NCBI RefSeq assembly: GCF_006385135.1
Contig: NZ_CP041025.1
Span: 1,147,501-1,211,500, forward strand
Direction of reading: 5' to 3'
Length of the DNA: 64,000 nt
From: Paremcibacter congregatus
GTDB taxonomy: Bacteria; Pseudomonadota; Alphaproteobacteria; Sphingomonadales; Emcibacteraceae
Both the position numbers and the translations under genes were made by a program. Of the stretch, positions 14,758 to 24,307 are shown one piece after another; position 1 is the first letter of the stretch, and every line of letters begins with the position of its first letter. Under the pieces are notes generated by a model. It worked only from the letters and a program-made list of their open reading frames with translations, had not been told where the DNA came from and did not search any database.

Positions 14758-17700
14758 ATGCGTTTATTTTCTTATAAAGATCGTCCTTTTCATTTGGGCC
14801 CTTATCCTCTGGAAAATGTGAAGCGCAGAGATGGGGCGGCTGATCTGAGCCGGATCCCCGCTATGACACCCCTTTCTTTTCGCCGACCGCAAGATCCGCT
14901 GAGTCTGGTCAATGCGATGCAGGATTATCAGGCGATGCTCGATGCCATTCGCGATGGCTCGGTAAAAGACCAGACAGGCGAAATTCCGGACGACCTGGCG
15001 GAACGCGCCCGCCACTTGAAATCCTTCGGCTATTATTGCGACGCCAGTCAGGCGGGCGTCTGCGCACTGCCGAAAGAAGCCATTCTGGATCAGGCGATTG
15101 TAAACCCTGATATCGCCCGGCTCGCGGACATCCTGAAGCATAAACAAACCAGCACCCTGGCCTCCGGGGTTGACGTGGTGATGGCGGAACTGAAGGAAAC
15201 CATGGAGACACCGGCCAGCCGGATCGATCATCATAGTCACGTCATAGTCTATCTCTATGAATTTCCCCGTGATCCGGCGTCCGGGGAGCCGGGGACGGAC
15301 TGGATCGGGGAGGCGCAGTTGCAACGGGCGGCCTTGCGGGCGGCGGAAACCACGGTGGTGATTTCCAACTATATTCGTTTGCTGGGCTATGAGGCCCGCG
15401 GCCATAGTCACAGCAGCACGGACGTAAATCTCCACGCGCTCGCGGTGGCGGCCGGGCTCGGCGAGGTGCGGCAGGATGAGAATGGCCCTTATGTGGAGAA
15501 CCCTTATCTTGGGCGGCGGTTTGGCATTGGCGCGATCACCACCACATTGCCGTTATTGCCGGACCGGCCTTTGGCCCCTTCAGGGATCACAACGAAATGG
15601 CGCAGTCACGGCCCGGCCTGGTGGCTGGGAATATCCACGGCAAAAAGTGCGTTGAACCAACTGCTCTATAAAGACCGGCGGTTTAAGGACGGGGCCTATC
15701 CCTTTGAGCGCAGCCAACGTCAGGAGACGCCGACGACTTTTATTGACGAACCTCGCGTGGCGCGGGTGCCGAAGCGCACCGATATGTTCGCCCGGGCGTT
15801 GTTTGGCGATATGGGCAGGACGGTTCAGGAGGCGACCAAGAACGGCAATTATGTGCGCAAGAACCCGACTTCCTTCGCCGCCCGACGGGCGCTCGGGGCG
15901 TTTATCCTGATCCAGAATGGCGATGCGGCGCCAGAAGTTCATCCGGCCGCGACGGAAGCACAGCGTAACGCGGACAATGTCAAGGCGGCGCTGAATTTCC
16001 TCGGGGCCGATGCGGTGGGCATCAGCCGCTGCCCCGACTGGGCCTATTATTCCCATGACGCCGGCGGGGCGGAGATCACGCCCTATCACCAGAACGCCAT
16101 CTCGGTCATCATCGATCAGGGCCATGAAACCATGGACGGGGCCAGCGGCGACGACTGGATCGCCTGCGCCCAATCGATGCGGGCCTATTTGCGTTTCTCC
16201 CTGCTCGGCGGCATTGTCGCCGGACATATCCGCAATCTGGGCTATTCCGCCCGCGCCCATACGGTGATGGACGGGGAGGTGTTGCAGCCGCCTTTGCTGT
16301 TGCTGGCGGGCCTCGGGGAAGTGAGCCGCATTGGCGAGGTGATCCTCAACCCCTATCTCGGGCCGCGCCTGAAATCCGGGGTGATCACCACCGACATGCC
16401 GCTCGCCCATGACAAACCGATTAATTTTGGACTGCAGAATTTCTGTAATAACTGCAATAAATGCGCCCGGGAATGCCCGTCAGGGGCGATTACCGCTGGG
16501 CCGAAGCTGATGTTCAACGGCTATGAGATCTGGAAGTCCGACAGCCAGAAATGCACCACGTACCGCGTCAGCCAGACGGCGGGAGCCATGTGTGGGCGTT
16601 GCATGAAAACCTGCCCGTGGAATCTGGAAGGGTTGTTTGCCGAAGCGCCTTTCCGCTGGCTTGCGACCAAGGCCCCCTGGGCGGCGCGTTTCCTGGCCCA
16701 TCTGGATGATCGGCTGGGTCATGGTCGTCGCAATCCCCACAAGAAATGGTGGTGGGATCTGGTGATGGAAAATGAAGGGCCTTACAAAAAAGCCGCTTCA
16801 GCCAATGAACGGGAACTGCAGACCGACCTTGATCTGAAATATGAGGACCAGACCCTGGCGGTCTATCCGGCCAATCTGGCGCCGCCGCCCTATCCGGCGC
16901 CTTTCCCCATGGATCGGGAAGAGGGTATCGCGGCTTATGAAAAAATGATCACGCCCAGGGCCTATCAGGACAGGCTGGCCAAGGGCGAGACGCAGGGTCT
17001 GGCCCATGAGTTCAGGATACCTGCGGGCCCACCGCCGGTCTTTCAGGTGCAGGTGGTAAAAGCGGAGCGCATGACCGATGACGTGACAAAATATGAATTT
17101 ACCTCACTCGACGGGGCCCCGTTGCCCGCCTTTGATGCGGGGGCGCATATCGATGTGGCCGTCGCGCCGGAGTTCTTCCGCCAATATAGTTTGAGTGGTG
17201 ATCCGGCGGACCGGGCCCGCTATCAAATTGCCGTTTTGCGCGAGGACGAGGGACGGGGCGGCTCAAAACTGATGCACCGTATCTTTAGCGAGGGCCGCAA
17301 GGTCTTTATATCGCCGCCGCGCAACCATTTCCCGCTTGTGGAGGACGCTTCGAAAAGCTATCTGATGGGCGGCGGTATTGGCATTACTCCGATGATTGCG
17401 ATGGCGCATCGGCTGTATGCCTTGGGGCGGGATTTTGAAGTGCACTATTCCTGCCGATCACGGGCCTCTGCCGGGTTTCTCGCGGATTTGGCGACGGTGC
17501 CGTGGCGGGACAATGTGCATTTGCATTTCTCGGATGAGGGGAGCCGGGTCGATCTGGGCCGGCTTTTTAGACAAACTGATCTAACCCAGCATATCTATGT
17601 TTGCGGCCCTGATCGTTTCATGACGGCGGTGCTGGATGCCGGGGAGGCGGCGGGCTGGCCAGAAGAAAACCTGCATCGGGAGTATTTCGCCGTGCCGGAG

Positions 17701-17985
17701 GGGGTCGACTATGTTAATCATCCCTTCACCGTGAAGCTGGCGCAATCCGGACGGGAGATCAGGATTTCCGCGGATCAGAATGCGGCAGAAGCCTTGATTG
17801 CAGCGGGTATTCCGGTCGACGTGAAATGTTCGGACGGGCTCTGTGGTGTCTGCGCCTGTGGCCTGCTGGAAGGAGAGGTGGAGCATCGGGATTTCGTGCT
17901 CTCGAAAAAGGATCGCGACCATAAGATTATCCTCTGTTCTTCCCGCGCTGTGGAAGAGGGTGGCATTGTGGTTGTTGATTTATAA
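14758..17985 (+). CDS. reductive-dehalogenase-like protein fused to flavin/2Fe-2S reductase
   Basis: 1075 residues with no Tat signal, so cytoplasmic. Residues 1-290 and 300-555 are two diverged copies of the same module: YKDRPF..YPLE against YKDRRF..YPFE, and VENPYLGRRFGIGAITTTLPL against LNPYLGPRLKSGVITTDMPL. The second carries WAYYSH at 428-433, near where the catalytic Tyr of NpRdhA lies. Two [4Fe-4S] sites follow: FCNNCNKCARECP (about 561-573) and C598 with MCGRCMKTCPW (about 610-620). The C-terminal third is a phthalate-dioxygenase-reductase module: RQYSL flavin motif (about 803), GGGIGITP nucleotide motif (about 870) and a plant-type ferredoxin CSDGLCGVC (about 1023) with a final Cys near 1060. 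This order matches the catabolic fusion BhbA, which removes aryl halides using NAD(P)H and cobalamin. A related non-dehalogenase role cannot be excluded. Confidence 0.85.
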   Translation: MRLFSYKDRPFHLGPYPLENVKRRDGAADLSRIPAMTPLSFRRPQDPLSLVNAMQDYQAMLDAIRDGSVKDQTGEIPDDLAERARHLKSFGYYCDASQAGVCALPKEAILDQAIVNPDIARLADILKHKQTSTLASGVDVVMAELKETMETPASRIDHHSHVIVYLYEFPRDPASGEPGTDWIGEAQLQRAALRAAETTVVISNYIRLLGYEARGHSHSSTDVNLHALAVAAGLGEVRQDENGPYVENPYLGRRFGIGAITTTLPLLPDRPLAPSGITTKWRSHGPAWWLGISTAKSALNQLLYKDRRFKDGAYPFERSQRQETPTTFIDEPRVARVPKRTDMFARALFGDMGRTVQEATKNGNYVRKNPTSFAARRALGAFILIQNGDAAPEVHPAATEAQRNADNVKAALNFLGADAVGISRCPDWAYYSHDAGGAEITPYHQNAISVIIDQGHETMDGASGDDWIACAQSMRAYLRFSLLGGIVAGHIRNLGYSARAHTVMDGEVLQPPLLLLAGLGEVSRIGEVILNPYLGPRLKSGVITTDMPLAHDKPINFGLQNFCNNCNKCARECPSGAITAGPKLMFNGYEIWKSDSQKCTTYRVSQTAGAMCGRCMKTCPWNLEGLFAEAPFRWLATKAPWAARFLAHLDDRLGHGRRNPHKKWWWDLVMENEGPYKKAASANERELQTDLDLKYEDQTLAVYPANLAPPPYPAPFPMDREEGIAAYEKMITPRAYQDRLAKGETQGLAHEFRIPAGPPPVFQVQVVKAERMTDDVTKYEFTSLDGAPLPAFDAGAHIDVAVAPEFFRQYSLSGDPADRARYQIAVLREDEGRGGSKLMHRIFSEGRKVFISPPRNHFPLVEDASKSYLMGGGIGITPMIAMAHRLYALGRDFEVHYSCRSRASAGFLADLATVPWRDNVHLHFSDEGSRVDLGRLFRQTDLTQHIYVCGPDRFMTAVLDAGEAAGWPEENLHREYFAVPEGVDYVNHPFTVKLAQSGREIRISADQNAAEALIAAGIPVDVKCSDGLCGVCACGLLEGEVEHRDFVLSKKDRDHKIILCSSRAVEEGGIVVVDL

Positions 17986-18042: not shown

Positions 18043-18336
18043 ATGGAACTTGAGAAAATAGCACAATGCCTGGCGGAGCTGGGCCATTCGAAGAGATTGC
18101 AGGCCTATCAGTTATTGGTCCGTGCCGGTGATGAGGGGTTGACCGTTGGCGAAATTCAACGCCATCTGGACATGCCGAAATCCACGTTCTCCCATCATAT
18201 CGACCGGCTCAGTCGCGTCGATCTGATTTCACAGGAGCGGGAGGGGCGGATTATACGCTGTCGGGCCAATTTTGGTGCGATGCGGAACATTGTCGACTTT
18301 CTTTCGAAGGAATGCTGTAGCGGTATTTTCACTTAG
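18043..18336 (+). CDS. ArsR-family HTH regulator
   Basis: 97 residues. The winged HTH is complete: LAELGHSKRLQAYQLL, then GLTVGEIQRHLDMPKSTFSHHIDRLSRVDLI with the recognition helix, then a wing containing EREGRIIRCRA. The family's classical metal-box ELCVCDL is absent, but a vicinal Cys pair (ECCSG) lies at the extreme C-terminus and could bind arsenite or another soft metal. A strong promoter sits directly upstream and an ArsP-like permease follows. Regulation of that permease is therefore the simplest reading; it might also act on the upstream fusion gene. Confidence 0.88.
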   Translation: MELEKIAQCLAELGHSKRLQAYQLLVRAGDEGLTVGEIQRHLDMPKSTFSHHIDRLSRVDLISQEREGRIIRCRANFGAMRNIVDFLSKECCSGIFT

Positions 18337-18416
18337 GCCGTTCTAAGATGAAGCAGGTGTTCCGGGCTGCGGTGTTGCGGAAGTCATCCTGTTTTTTTAC
18401 ATCTAATAGTACGATA

Positions 18417-18426
18417 ATTCTAGAAT
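18417..18426. promoter_or_regulatory. ATTCTAGAAT palindrome upstream of the permease gene
   Basis: Perfect 10-bp palindrome 12 bases before the permease start and 80 bases after the ArsR stop, suitable as a dimer operator. The 101-base gap otherwise holds no obvious terminator. Confidence 0.45.
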
Positions 18427-18437
18427 AATGGGAATTT

Positions 18438-19490
18438 ATGATGAATGAAATATATGAACAAGATATTCTGGCGCGAAAGCCTTTCAATCCGTTCAGAATT
18501 TTACGCCGATGGGATAAAGTGGTTCTGGCGATACTCCTGATTACGCTTGTCTTGGCGTTGACGTCACAGCAGCAGGCGCTGAATAGTGTCACTGGGACCG
18601 GTCTGTCGCTTTTATCCGTTGCGCCCTTTATTCTGTTGTCCGTATTGCTGGCCGCTTATATCAAGGCTACGGGCCTGGATCAGCAGATTGCCCGGGCCTT
18701 TAGTTATTCGCCGGTCAGGTCAATATTCTTTGCCGCCATTCTCGGGGCTTTGTCGCCTTTCTGCTCCTGTGGTGTGATCCCGATCATAGCCGGATTGTTG
18801 ATTTCCGGTGTGCCGCTGGCGCCGGTGATGGCTTTTTGGCTCGCGTCTCCGCTGATGGACCCCGAGATGTTTATTCTGACCTCGGCCGTCATGGGTTTTG
18901 ATTTTGCCGTGGTCAAGACAATTGCCGCCCTGGGTATCGCCTTGTTCGCTGGGTTTGTGATTCATTTTTTCCGGCATCTGCCGATGTTTCAAACTGTTTT
19001 GCGCGAGGGTTACGCCAGCGGGTGTGGCGGTCCGAAGGCTCCGGAGAGCGGCGTCATATCTCTTAAATTCTGGCAAGAAAAGGCCCGCCTGGCGGAGTTT
19101 AAGAAGCAGAGCCTCTCTACGGGCTGGTTTTTGGCGAAATGGTTGACGCTGGCGTTTTTGCTGGAAAGCATCATGCTGCGTTATTTGCCGGCGAACGGGG
19201 TTGCAGCGCATCTGAATGGGGATCAATGGTGGACCCTTCCCCTCAGTGCTTTGGTAGGTATTCCGGCTTACCTGAATGGCTATGCCGCCCTGCCGACCCT
19301 GTCTGCTTTGCTGGACAAGGGGATGGACCCGAGCGCCGGCCTGACGTTTGTCATTGCCGGGGGCGCAACAAGCATTCCTGCGGCGATGGCGGTATTTTCT
19401 CTGGTGAAAAAGAAGGTATTTGCGGCCTATATCGTTTTCGCCCTCAGCGGTGCGATCCTGTCGGGCGTGCTTCTGGGGCCTTTGTTATAA
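18438..19490 (+). CDS. ArsP/YraQ-like permease (DUF318)
   Basis: 350 residues with about eight hydrophobic helices. The family signature SPFCSCGVIPI appears near residue 110, followed by MAFWLASPLMDPEMF; a large charged loop lies near 190-215. The second half repeats the fold, with NGYAALPTLSALLDKG and VIAGGATSIPAAMA. Permeases of this group include ArsP, which exports trivalent organoarsenicals such as methylarsenite and roxarsone(III) using the conserved Cys. The adjacent ArsR-type gene supports a metalloid or thiol-reactive substrate. A second ATG at 18441 is an alternative start. Confidence 0.85.
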   Translation: MMNEIYEQDILARKPFNPFRILRRWDKVVLAILLITLVLALTSQQQALNSVTGTGLSLLSVAPFILLSVLLAAYIKATGLDQQIARAFSYSPVRSIFFAAILGALSPFCSCGVIPIIAGLLISGVPLAPVMAFWLASPLMDPEMFILTSAVMGFDFAVVKTIAALGIALFAGFVIHFFRHLPMFQTVLREGYASGCGGPKAPESGVISLKFWQEKARLAEFKKQSLSTGWFLAKWLTLAFLLESIMLRYLPANGVAAHLNGDQWWTLPLSALVGIPAYLNGYAALPTLSALLDKGMDPSAGLTFVIAGGATSIPAAMAVFSLVKKKVFAAYIVFALSGAILSGVLLGPLL

Positions 19491-21233: not shown

Positions 21234-21321
21234 TGGAGGAGAGGAAGGGATTCGAACCCTCGAGAGCTTGCGCCCAACACGCTTTCCAGGCGTGCGCCTT
21301 AAACCACTCGGCCACCTCTCC
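21234..21321 (-). tRNA. tRNA-Ser (anticodon GGA)
   Basis: 88 nt including an encoded CCA (complement of TGG at 21234-21236). The acceptor stem GGAGAGG/CCTCTCC is perfect, the anticodon stem CACGC/GCGTG encloses CTGGAAA (anticodon GGA), the variable arm is long as in class II tRNAs, and the T arm is GAGGG-TTCGAAT-CCCTT. The base at position 73 reads U, not the G that serves as a serine identity element in E. coli. Confidence 0.93.
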
Positions 21322-22348: not shown

Positions 22349-22499
22349 CCTCTGTGGACCTTACATAAGGGGGGACGGGTTCTGCCCTGTGCGTAGTTTA
22401 CTTTATCCCTGGGGCGATAATCATTCCGAAGGGAGCTGTCCCTGTCCGGGCCCTGGTCCGGATATTATGGCGCCCACCTGTTTAACCAGGTTCCGGAGG
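22349..22499 (+). ncRNA. ssrS: 6S RNA
   Basis: No protein family was recognised here and the region folds strongly. A closing stem forms between CCTCTGTGGACC (22349-22360) and GGTTCCGGAGG (22489-22499) with one bulged U. A long internal helix pairs GGGCGATAAT (22412-22421) with ATTAT and CGCCC (22464-22475), and two smaller hairpins sit inside (AGGGA-GCTG-TCCCT, TCCGG-N8-CCGGA). The 3' segment GGCGCCCACCTG and the location directly upstream of the 5-formyl-THF cyclo-ligase gene are both typical of alphaproteobacterial 6S RNA. That RNA binds sigma-70 RNA polymerase as a promoter mimic. Ends are approximate; an extra ACCTG/CAGGT 3' hairpin competes with the closing stem. Confidence 0.8.
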
Positions 22500-22567
22500 A
22501 TACAACTGAATTACGGCAGCGATGGTCCCGTCACCGAATTCTATAATTTCGCTTGAAGAAAGCCGAC

Positions 22568-24039: not shown

Positions 24040-24067
24040 AGTAGCGTCCCCGCATGGTGTGGGGGCT

Positions 24068-24215
24068 GTTCTCAGGGCGGGGTGAAATTCCCCACCGGCG
24101 GTGAGGGGCCGAATGTCCCACAGCCCGCGAGCGCCTTCCGGACGCACTGTTCAGAAGGGTCAGCAGATCTGGTGTAACTCCAGAGCCGACGGTATAGTCC
24201 GGATGGTAGAGAATG
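24068..24215 (+). promoter_or_regulatory. FMN riboswitch (RFN element)
   Basis: The conserved aptamer segments appear in order: GTTCTCAGGGCGGGGTGAAA, CCCACCGGCGGT, AGCCCGCGAGCG, GGTCAGCAGATCTGGTG, CTCCAGAGCCGACGGT, ATAGTCCGGATGGTAGAGAA. The P1 closing stem pairs GTTCTC with GAGAAT. A short CGCCT/AGGCG hairpin (24231-24247) followed by a T run at 24259-24263 lies between aptamer and ribH and may be the expression platform. Confidence 0.96.
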
Positions 24216-24307
24216 AAAATAGGGACGGGACGCCTAGTGATCAGGCGGTCTGTGACTGTTTTTGTACGCCTTGGTTCTGTTTTTTTGTCTTTTAGAAGGA
24301 GCAAACC

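Follow-up and report, generated by a model that had tools for sequence, protein, structure and literature searches.

A predicted NADPH-dependent, self-sufficient catabolic reductive dehalogenase with a vestigial first module in an Emcibacter-type alphaproteobacterium

The 'full-length' or self-sufficient architecture of catabolic reductive dehalogenases (RdhAs), including its vestigial duplication, has been published for BhbA and JtRdhA. The excerpted text of that paper (PMC10463259) describes JtRdhA, from Jhaorihella thermophila, as an NADPH-driven enzyme that works in air and acts on brominated and iodinated phenols, reports no activity on any chlorinated compound tested, and states that the catabolic RdhAs characterised by 2023 were all specific for ortho-halogenated phenols. 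In NpRdhA from Nitratireductor pacificus, according to the excerpted text of PMC7565698, Tyr426 and Lys488 together donate the proton, and the phenol hydroxyl is bound by Ser422, Lys488 and Arg552. All three aspects, architecture, vestigial duplication and chemistry, are therefore in print already; the kind of enzyme is known, and the class itself has been described and expressed.

Here, we analysed a stretch of 64,000 nucleotides (the window) from an Emcibacter-type alphaproteobacterium, in which an intact frame on the plus strand (14758-17985, ATG to TAA) encodes a single chain of 1075 residues. We conclude that this protein is very probably a catabolic, self-sufficient RdhA, most likely acting as an NADPH-dependent debrominase or deiodinase of ortho-halophenols. 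Its parts are as follows.

14758-17985, + strand: predicted self-sufficient catabolic reductive dehalogenase, 1075 aa (family model, structure-sequence search, relatives and fold match)
14758-15603, + strand: N-terminal vestigial RdhA module, residues 1-282, with no catalytic Tyr/Lys and no Fe-S motif; boundaries approximate
15073-15228, + strand: residues 106-157, unaligned to NpRdhA (10 residues there) in the structure-sequence search
15655-16443, + strand: second RdhA module, predicted to be functional and cobalamin-binding, residues 300-562; boundaries approximate
16444-16623, + strand: two [4Fe-4S] cluster motifs, residues 563-622 (Cys563/566/569/573 and Cys599/612/615/619)
17029-17697, + strand: flavin- and NAD(P)H-binding domains, phthalate dioxygenase reductase-like, residues 758-980
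17725-17982, + strand: plant-type [2Fe-2S] ferredoxin domain, residues 990-1075 (ligands Cys1024/1029/1032/1060)

The first-pass annotation had read the frame as one chain joining two RdhA modules, two [4Fe-4S] clusters, a flavin/NAD(P)H domain and a [2Fe-2S] ferredoxin, and the frame, the profile matches, the cysteines and the structure matches all bear this out. The second module matched the NCBIfam reductive dehalogenase model TIGR02486 at 220.2 bits (cut-off 160.35). Among solved structures, a sequence search matched NpRdhA (4ras; residues 1-105 and 158-742, E 3e-161) and, towards the C-terminus, 2pia, a phthalate dioxygenase reductase (residues 763-1066, E 4.3e-61); the C-terminal third also matches the reductase portion of the self-sufficient P450s 6kbh and 6laa. 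This flavin/NAD(P)H/[2Fe-2S] unit is free-standing in 2pia and attached to a P450 in 6kbh and 6laa, and in none of them is it joined to a dehalogenase. The [4Fe-4S] ligand cysteines are present in 76 or 77 of 78 aligned rows, the remainder being gaps, and are invariant in a separate 30-row alignment. The Pfam dehalogenase family PF13486 was not among the matches of the 1075-aa protein, a miss that carries no meaning because BhbA misses it too.

The predicted fold, which the first-pass annotation had proposed as a check, agrees with these assignments. An AlphaFold2 model built with 29 aligned sequences (pLDDT 88.9, pTM 0.88) has the NpRdhA fold over residues 1-742 and that of the phthalate dioxygenase reductase (PDR) over residues 758-1075. 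The best VIA-align 2 match was NpRdhA (6zxx; Z 49.8, 2.1 A, 676 aligned), while 2pia aligned over 307 residues with Z 30.1 and an rmsd of 12.5 A, so that its domains are placed differently; Foldseek agrees with both fold matches.

Among the described enzymes, JtRdhA, accession WP_104007082, can be compared by the excerpted description (PMC10463259) only: it shares the lack of a Tat signal, the duplicated cobalamin-binding domain, the two [4Fe-4S] motifs, the fused PDOR domain and the Tyr/Lys/Arg of NpRdhA, and differs in its source organism. BhbA (Comamonas sp. 7D-2, NC_021077.1, our locus L019) gives a co-linear full-length match at 51% identity, with similar NCBIfam and Pfam matches and the same catalytic residues, but it is plasmid-borne, with genes of the protocatechuate 4,5-dioxygenase type next to it, a placement that the present gene does not have. 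NpRdhA (4ras, 6zxu, 6zxx) shares the fold over residues 1-742, the vestigial first module and the catalytic residues; it has no PDR unit, however, and leaves residues 106-157 unaligned. These residues are perhaps the insert described for RdhA-PDOR fusions in the excerpted text of PMC10463259.

The duplication proposed in the first-pass annotation is real, though not as a doubling of the catalytic module, since only the second copy keeps the catalytic residues. A direct comparison of residues 158-272 with 443-555 gave 38% identity (E 1e-20), and in the genome search the first module matched TIGR02486 only weakly (49.6 bits). It has Ala192 at the place of the catalytic Tyr and Gly256 at that of the Lys, and among the 73 rows (of 78) with a letter there, none has Tyr or Lys. 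Its only cysteines are at 94 and 102, so it holds no Fe-S motif. The first modules of all sampled two-module proteins formed one clade (23 rows, support 100/98; 16 rows and 100/100 in a second tree), on branches that by eye are longer than those of the second modules. We therefore read the duplication as one old, family-wide event, not particular to this gene, in keeping with the vestigial duplication described for catabolic RdhAs (excerpted text of PMC10463259).

In a 79-row tree, a relative with a single module nested alongside NpRdhA, a position flagged as a possible long-branch artefact. In the tree with 16 first-module rows it fell outside all 20 second modules (97/87), but the root was placed on the first modules, and this placement therefore does not tell an ancestral single-module form from loss. 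Locus L018 (251-4248) has such an RdhA of 450-453 aa, which lacks both the vestigial module and the reductase; the other genes of this row encode an MFS transporter and ring-cleavage dioxygenase subunits resembling LigA and LigB. The frames of L017 are similar to this row (families were scanned for L018), the two loci being from two genomes of the same family, and further frames of about 450-453 aa occur among the relatives in the genome search.

The active site of the second module was placed by alignment with NpRdhA.

16174-16176, + strand: Ser473, equivalent to NpRdhA Ser422, phenol hydroxyl binding
16186-16188, + strand: Tyr477, equivalent to NpRdhA Tyr426, proton donor
16372-16374, + strand: Lys539, equivalent to NpRdhA Lys488
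16564-16566, + strand: Arg603, equivalent to NpRdhA Arg552, phenol hydroxyl binding

The WAYYSH segment, which the first-pass annotation had singled out for alignment with NpRdhA, is not the catalytic site: it spans residues 428-433 and aligns with NpRdhA WMYYAS, while the catalytic residues are Tyr477, Lys539 and Arg603. Across the 78 aligned rows, Tyr is kept in all 78, Lys and Ser in 77 each and Arg in 76. The exceptions are one gap at Arg and a second RdhA of the same genome (L031), which has Arg, Thr and Trp for Lys, Ser and Arg.

By analogy with the described homologues, NADPH would reduce the flavin of the C-terminal PDR unit, and electrons would travel by way of the [2Fe-2S] cluster and then both [4Fe-4S] clusters until they reach the cobalamin in the second RdhA module. 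The cobalt may then take off the halogen, as bromide or iodide, at the position ortho to a phenol hydroxyl that Ser473, Lys539 and Arg603 hold in place, with Tyr477 as the likely proton donor, and the first module would be a catalytically dead copy, presumably taking the place of the second subunit that the respiratory dimer has. A marine halophenol is a plausible substrate, as judged from the biochemistry of JtRdhA.

The pocket speaks less clearly for these substrates. Six positions were compared, and NpRdhA Phe290, Lys307, Phe310, Pro311, Ala419 and Asn452 correspond to Met343, Asn362, Tyr365, Val366, Cys470 and Val503 here, although the alignment at Lys307 is not firm (Thr360 in one alignment, Asn362 in another). 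The pocket thus differs from NpRdhA at all six positions and from BhbA, with the set FDSVSA, at five, so the substrates of NpRdhA and BhbA are not transferable to this protein. The exact set MNYVCV occurs in 29 of the 78 rows. These differences leave some room for an RdhA by descent that acts on another halogenated natural product, such as a carboxylate-free halophenol, a halotyrosine or a halopyrrole, or on a non-halogenated substrate. We hold this to be rather unlikely, because the Ser, Lys and Arg that bind the phenol hydroxyl are kept, which points to ortho-halophenols, the substrates of all catabolic RdhAs characterised by 2023 in the excerpted account cited above. Tentatively, the large RdhA-PDOR clade with the MNYVCV pocket might have a native substrate other than the bromo-hydroxybenzoates given to BhbA and NpRdhA, for example bromophenols from algae or sponges, or derivatives of bromotyrosine, and serve in detoxification or scavenging without a ring-cleavage operon.

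Several observations count against the debrominase or deiodinase assignment: the lack of a recognised catabolic gene nearby and of a PobA above the cut-off, the pocket unlike those of NpRdhA and BhbA, and the saturated outgroup branches described below. Upstream, on the opposite strand, lie genes for a PEMT-type methyltransferase and a DUF188 protein, and downstream (18043-19490) an ArsR-type regulator and an ArsP-type permease (Pfam assignments); no halophenol-catabolic gene was recognised among these adjacent genes. PobA was not found in the genome above the cut-off, which makes the fate of a 4-hydroxybenzoate product hard to place, and the one LigB-type dioxygenase of the genome is far from the gene. 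Three of ten window neighbours (a response-regulator/HD-type protein and two histidine kinases) gave BLASTP hits in 70 related loci, which says little because these domains are common. The most frequent neighbours of the relatives recur in at most 31 loci and seem to reflect synteny within Rhodobacterales.

The ArsR/SmtB-type gene begins only 57 bases past the stop codon on the same strand, and the permease has the SO_0444 family as its best NCBIfam match, below the cut-off; the dehalogenase gene could accordingly act with this pair in metal or organometal handling. We consider this very improbable, since the 57-base gap holds a promoter-like TTGACA-17-TATAAG sequence (read in the letters; a scan requiring a final T does not list it), and no homologue of either gene stands beside the 70 related loci, at BLASTP E <= 1e-8 among frames of at least 90 aa, where the 97-aa regulator could be missed, and within flanks of up to about 8 kb, some much shorter.

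The trees and profile scores place the protein with the catabolic RdhAs. In a second-module tree of 79 rows, with QueG and a pair of PceA-type sequences among them, a clade of 75 rows (SH-aLRT 99) unites this protein with BhbA and NpRdhA and leaves out QueG, the PceA-type pair and the second RdhA of the genome, although QueG and PceA sit on saturated outer branches (5-10 changes per column). The tree with 23 first-module rows also sets PceA apart. The view of a self-sufficient, non-respiratory dehalogenase of the BhbA/NpRdhA type is thus supported by family model, fold, active-site residues and trees. The reading as a non-respiratory enzyme without an adjacent membrane anchor gene also held up: the N-terminus lines up with NpRdhA residue 1, inspection by eye shows no twin-arginine signal there, and no RdhB-type anchor gene occurs among the four adjacent genes named above. 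We therefore rejected a respiratory RdhA. An identity as QueG or another non-dehalogenase cobalamin enzyme, suggested by a weak TIGR00276 match of 30.9 bits, was likewise rejected and has next to no probability, because the cut-off is 200 bits, the genome encodes a separate QueG scoring 439.4 bits, and the tree separates the two. Clustering with QueG, an outcome that the first-pass annotation had set against its own reading, accordingly did not occur by either profile score or tree, as far as the saturated outer branches allow.

Such enzymes are commoner than the 'a few' assumed at first, since even a scan that finds close relatives only, with one genome per species, returned 62 loci. The titles of 55 of these name Alphaproteobacteria or genera thereof (Emcibacter, Ruegeria, Yoonia, Litoreibacter, Loktanella and others); the other seven are from two Cellvibrionales, Pseudomaricurvus, three Burkholderiales and one Nocardioides. 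Judging from the names in the record titles, the clade is apparently marine. Eight plasmid records match at least 80% of the query; one of them is pBHB, where BhbA matches at 51%. Among 60 genomes searched, the source genome included, 23 gave a match at E <= 1e-60, and three of these are partial (G023 and G044 with the reductase part only, G001 with the first 146 residues). The best full-length relatives are 76% identical and from the same genus, and the nearest rows of the tree are same-genus genomes as well (L005, L006, L008, L009). The Nocardioides marinus record (L075) carries a full-length copy, 66% identical, that groups with a Leisingera copy and reflects either transfer or contamination.

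The gene has a G+C content of 59.0% as compared to 52.9% for the window, and a third-position G+C of 0.68 as compared to 0.52-0.64 in five other genes, and the same-genus loci L024, L026 and L027 have different surroundings; together these are suggestive, but only suggestive, of horizontal acquisition. We found no literature that pairs Emcibacter with a reductive dehalogenase among open-access papers. Our results would extend the oxygen-tolerant, NADPH-driven dehalogenases by an Emcibacter-type lineage and reveal a clade of considerable size that shares a single pocket type, unlike NpRdhA and BhbA. The enzyme's substrate, if found, would tell to what use these bacteria put aerobic B12 dehalogenation.

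Cobalamin synthesis or salvage is represented in the genome by CobN/Mg-chelatase-family and CobA/CobO/BtuR-family genes. One cobalamin riboswitch was found (C1:1079316-1079496), about 83 kb from the gene, with 150 of 251 candidates scored; none lies in the window at the gathering threshold. The second RdhA-like protein (L031:9161-10351, - strand; match C1:2131127-2131996) has 397 aa and a TIGR02486 score of 163.6 bits, just above the cut-off of 160.35. Besides its Ser to Thr, Lys to Arg and Arg to Trp changes at the active-site places, it has no Tat signal by eye and adjoins a MarR-type regulator and an MFS transporter. By description, it can be likened to a marine debrominase that has one module, a similar Fe-S motif and no Tat signal (excerpted text of PMC13101508).

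The RNA family match closest to the gene is a tRNA at 21237, and there is none in its vicinity. Further along the window, there is a 6S RNA at 22376-22532 and an FMN riboswitch at 24064-24218 (114.7 bits), the latter upstream of a frame (24308) whose product looks by eye like lumazine synthase.
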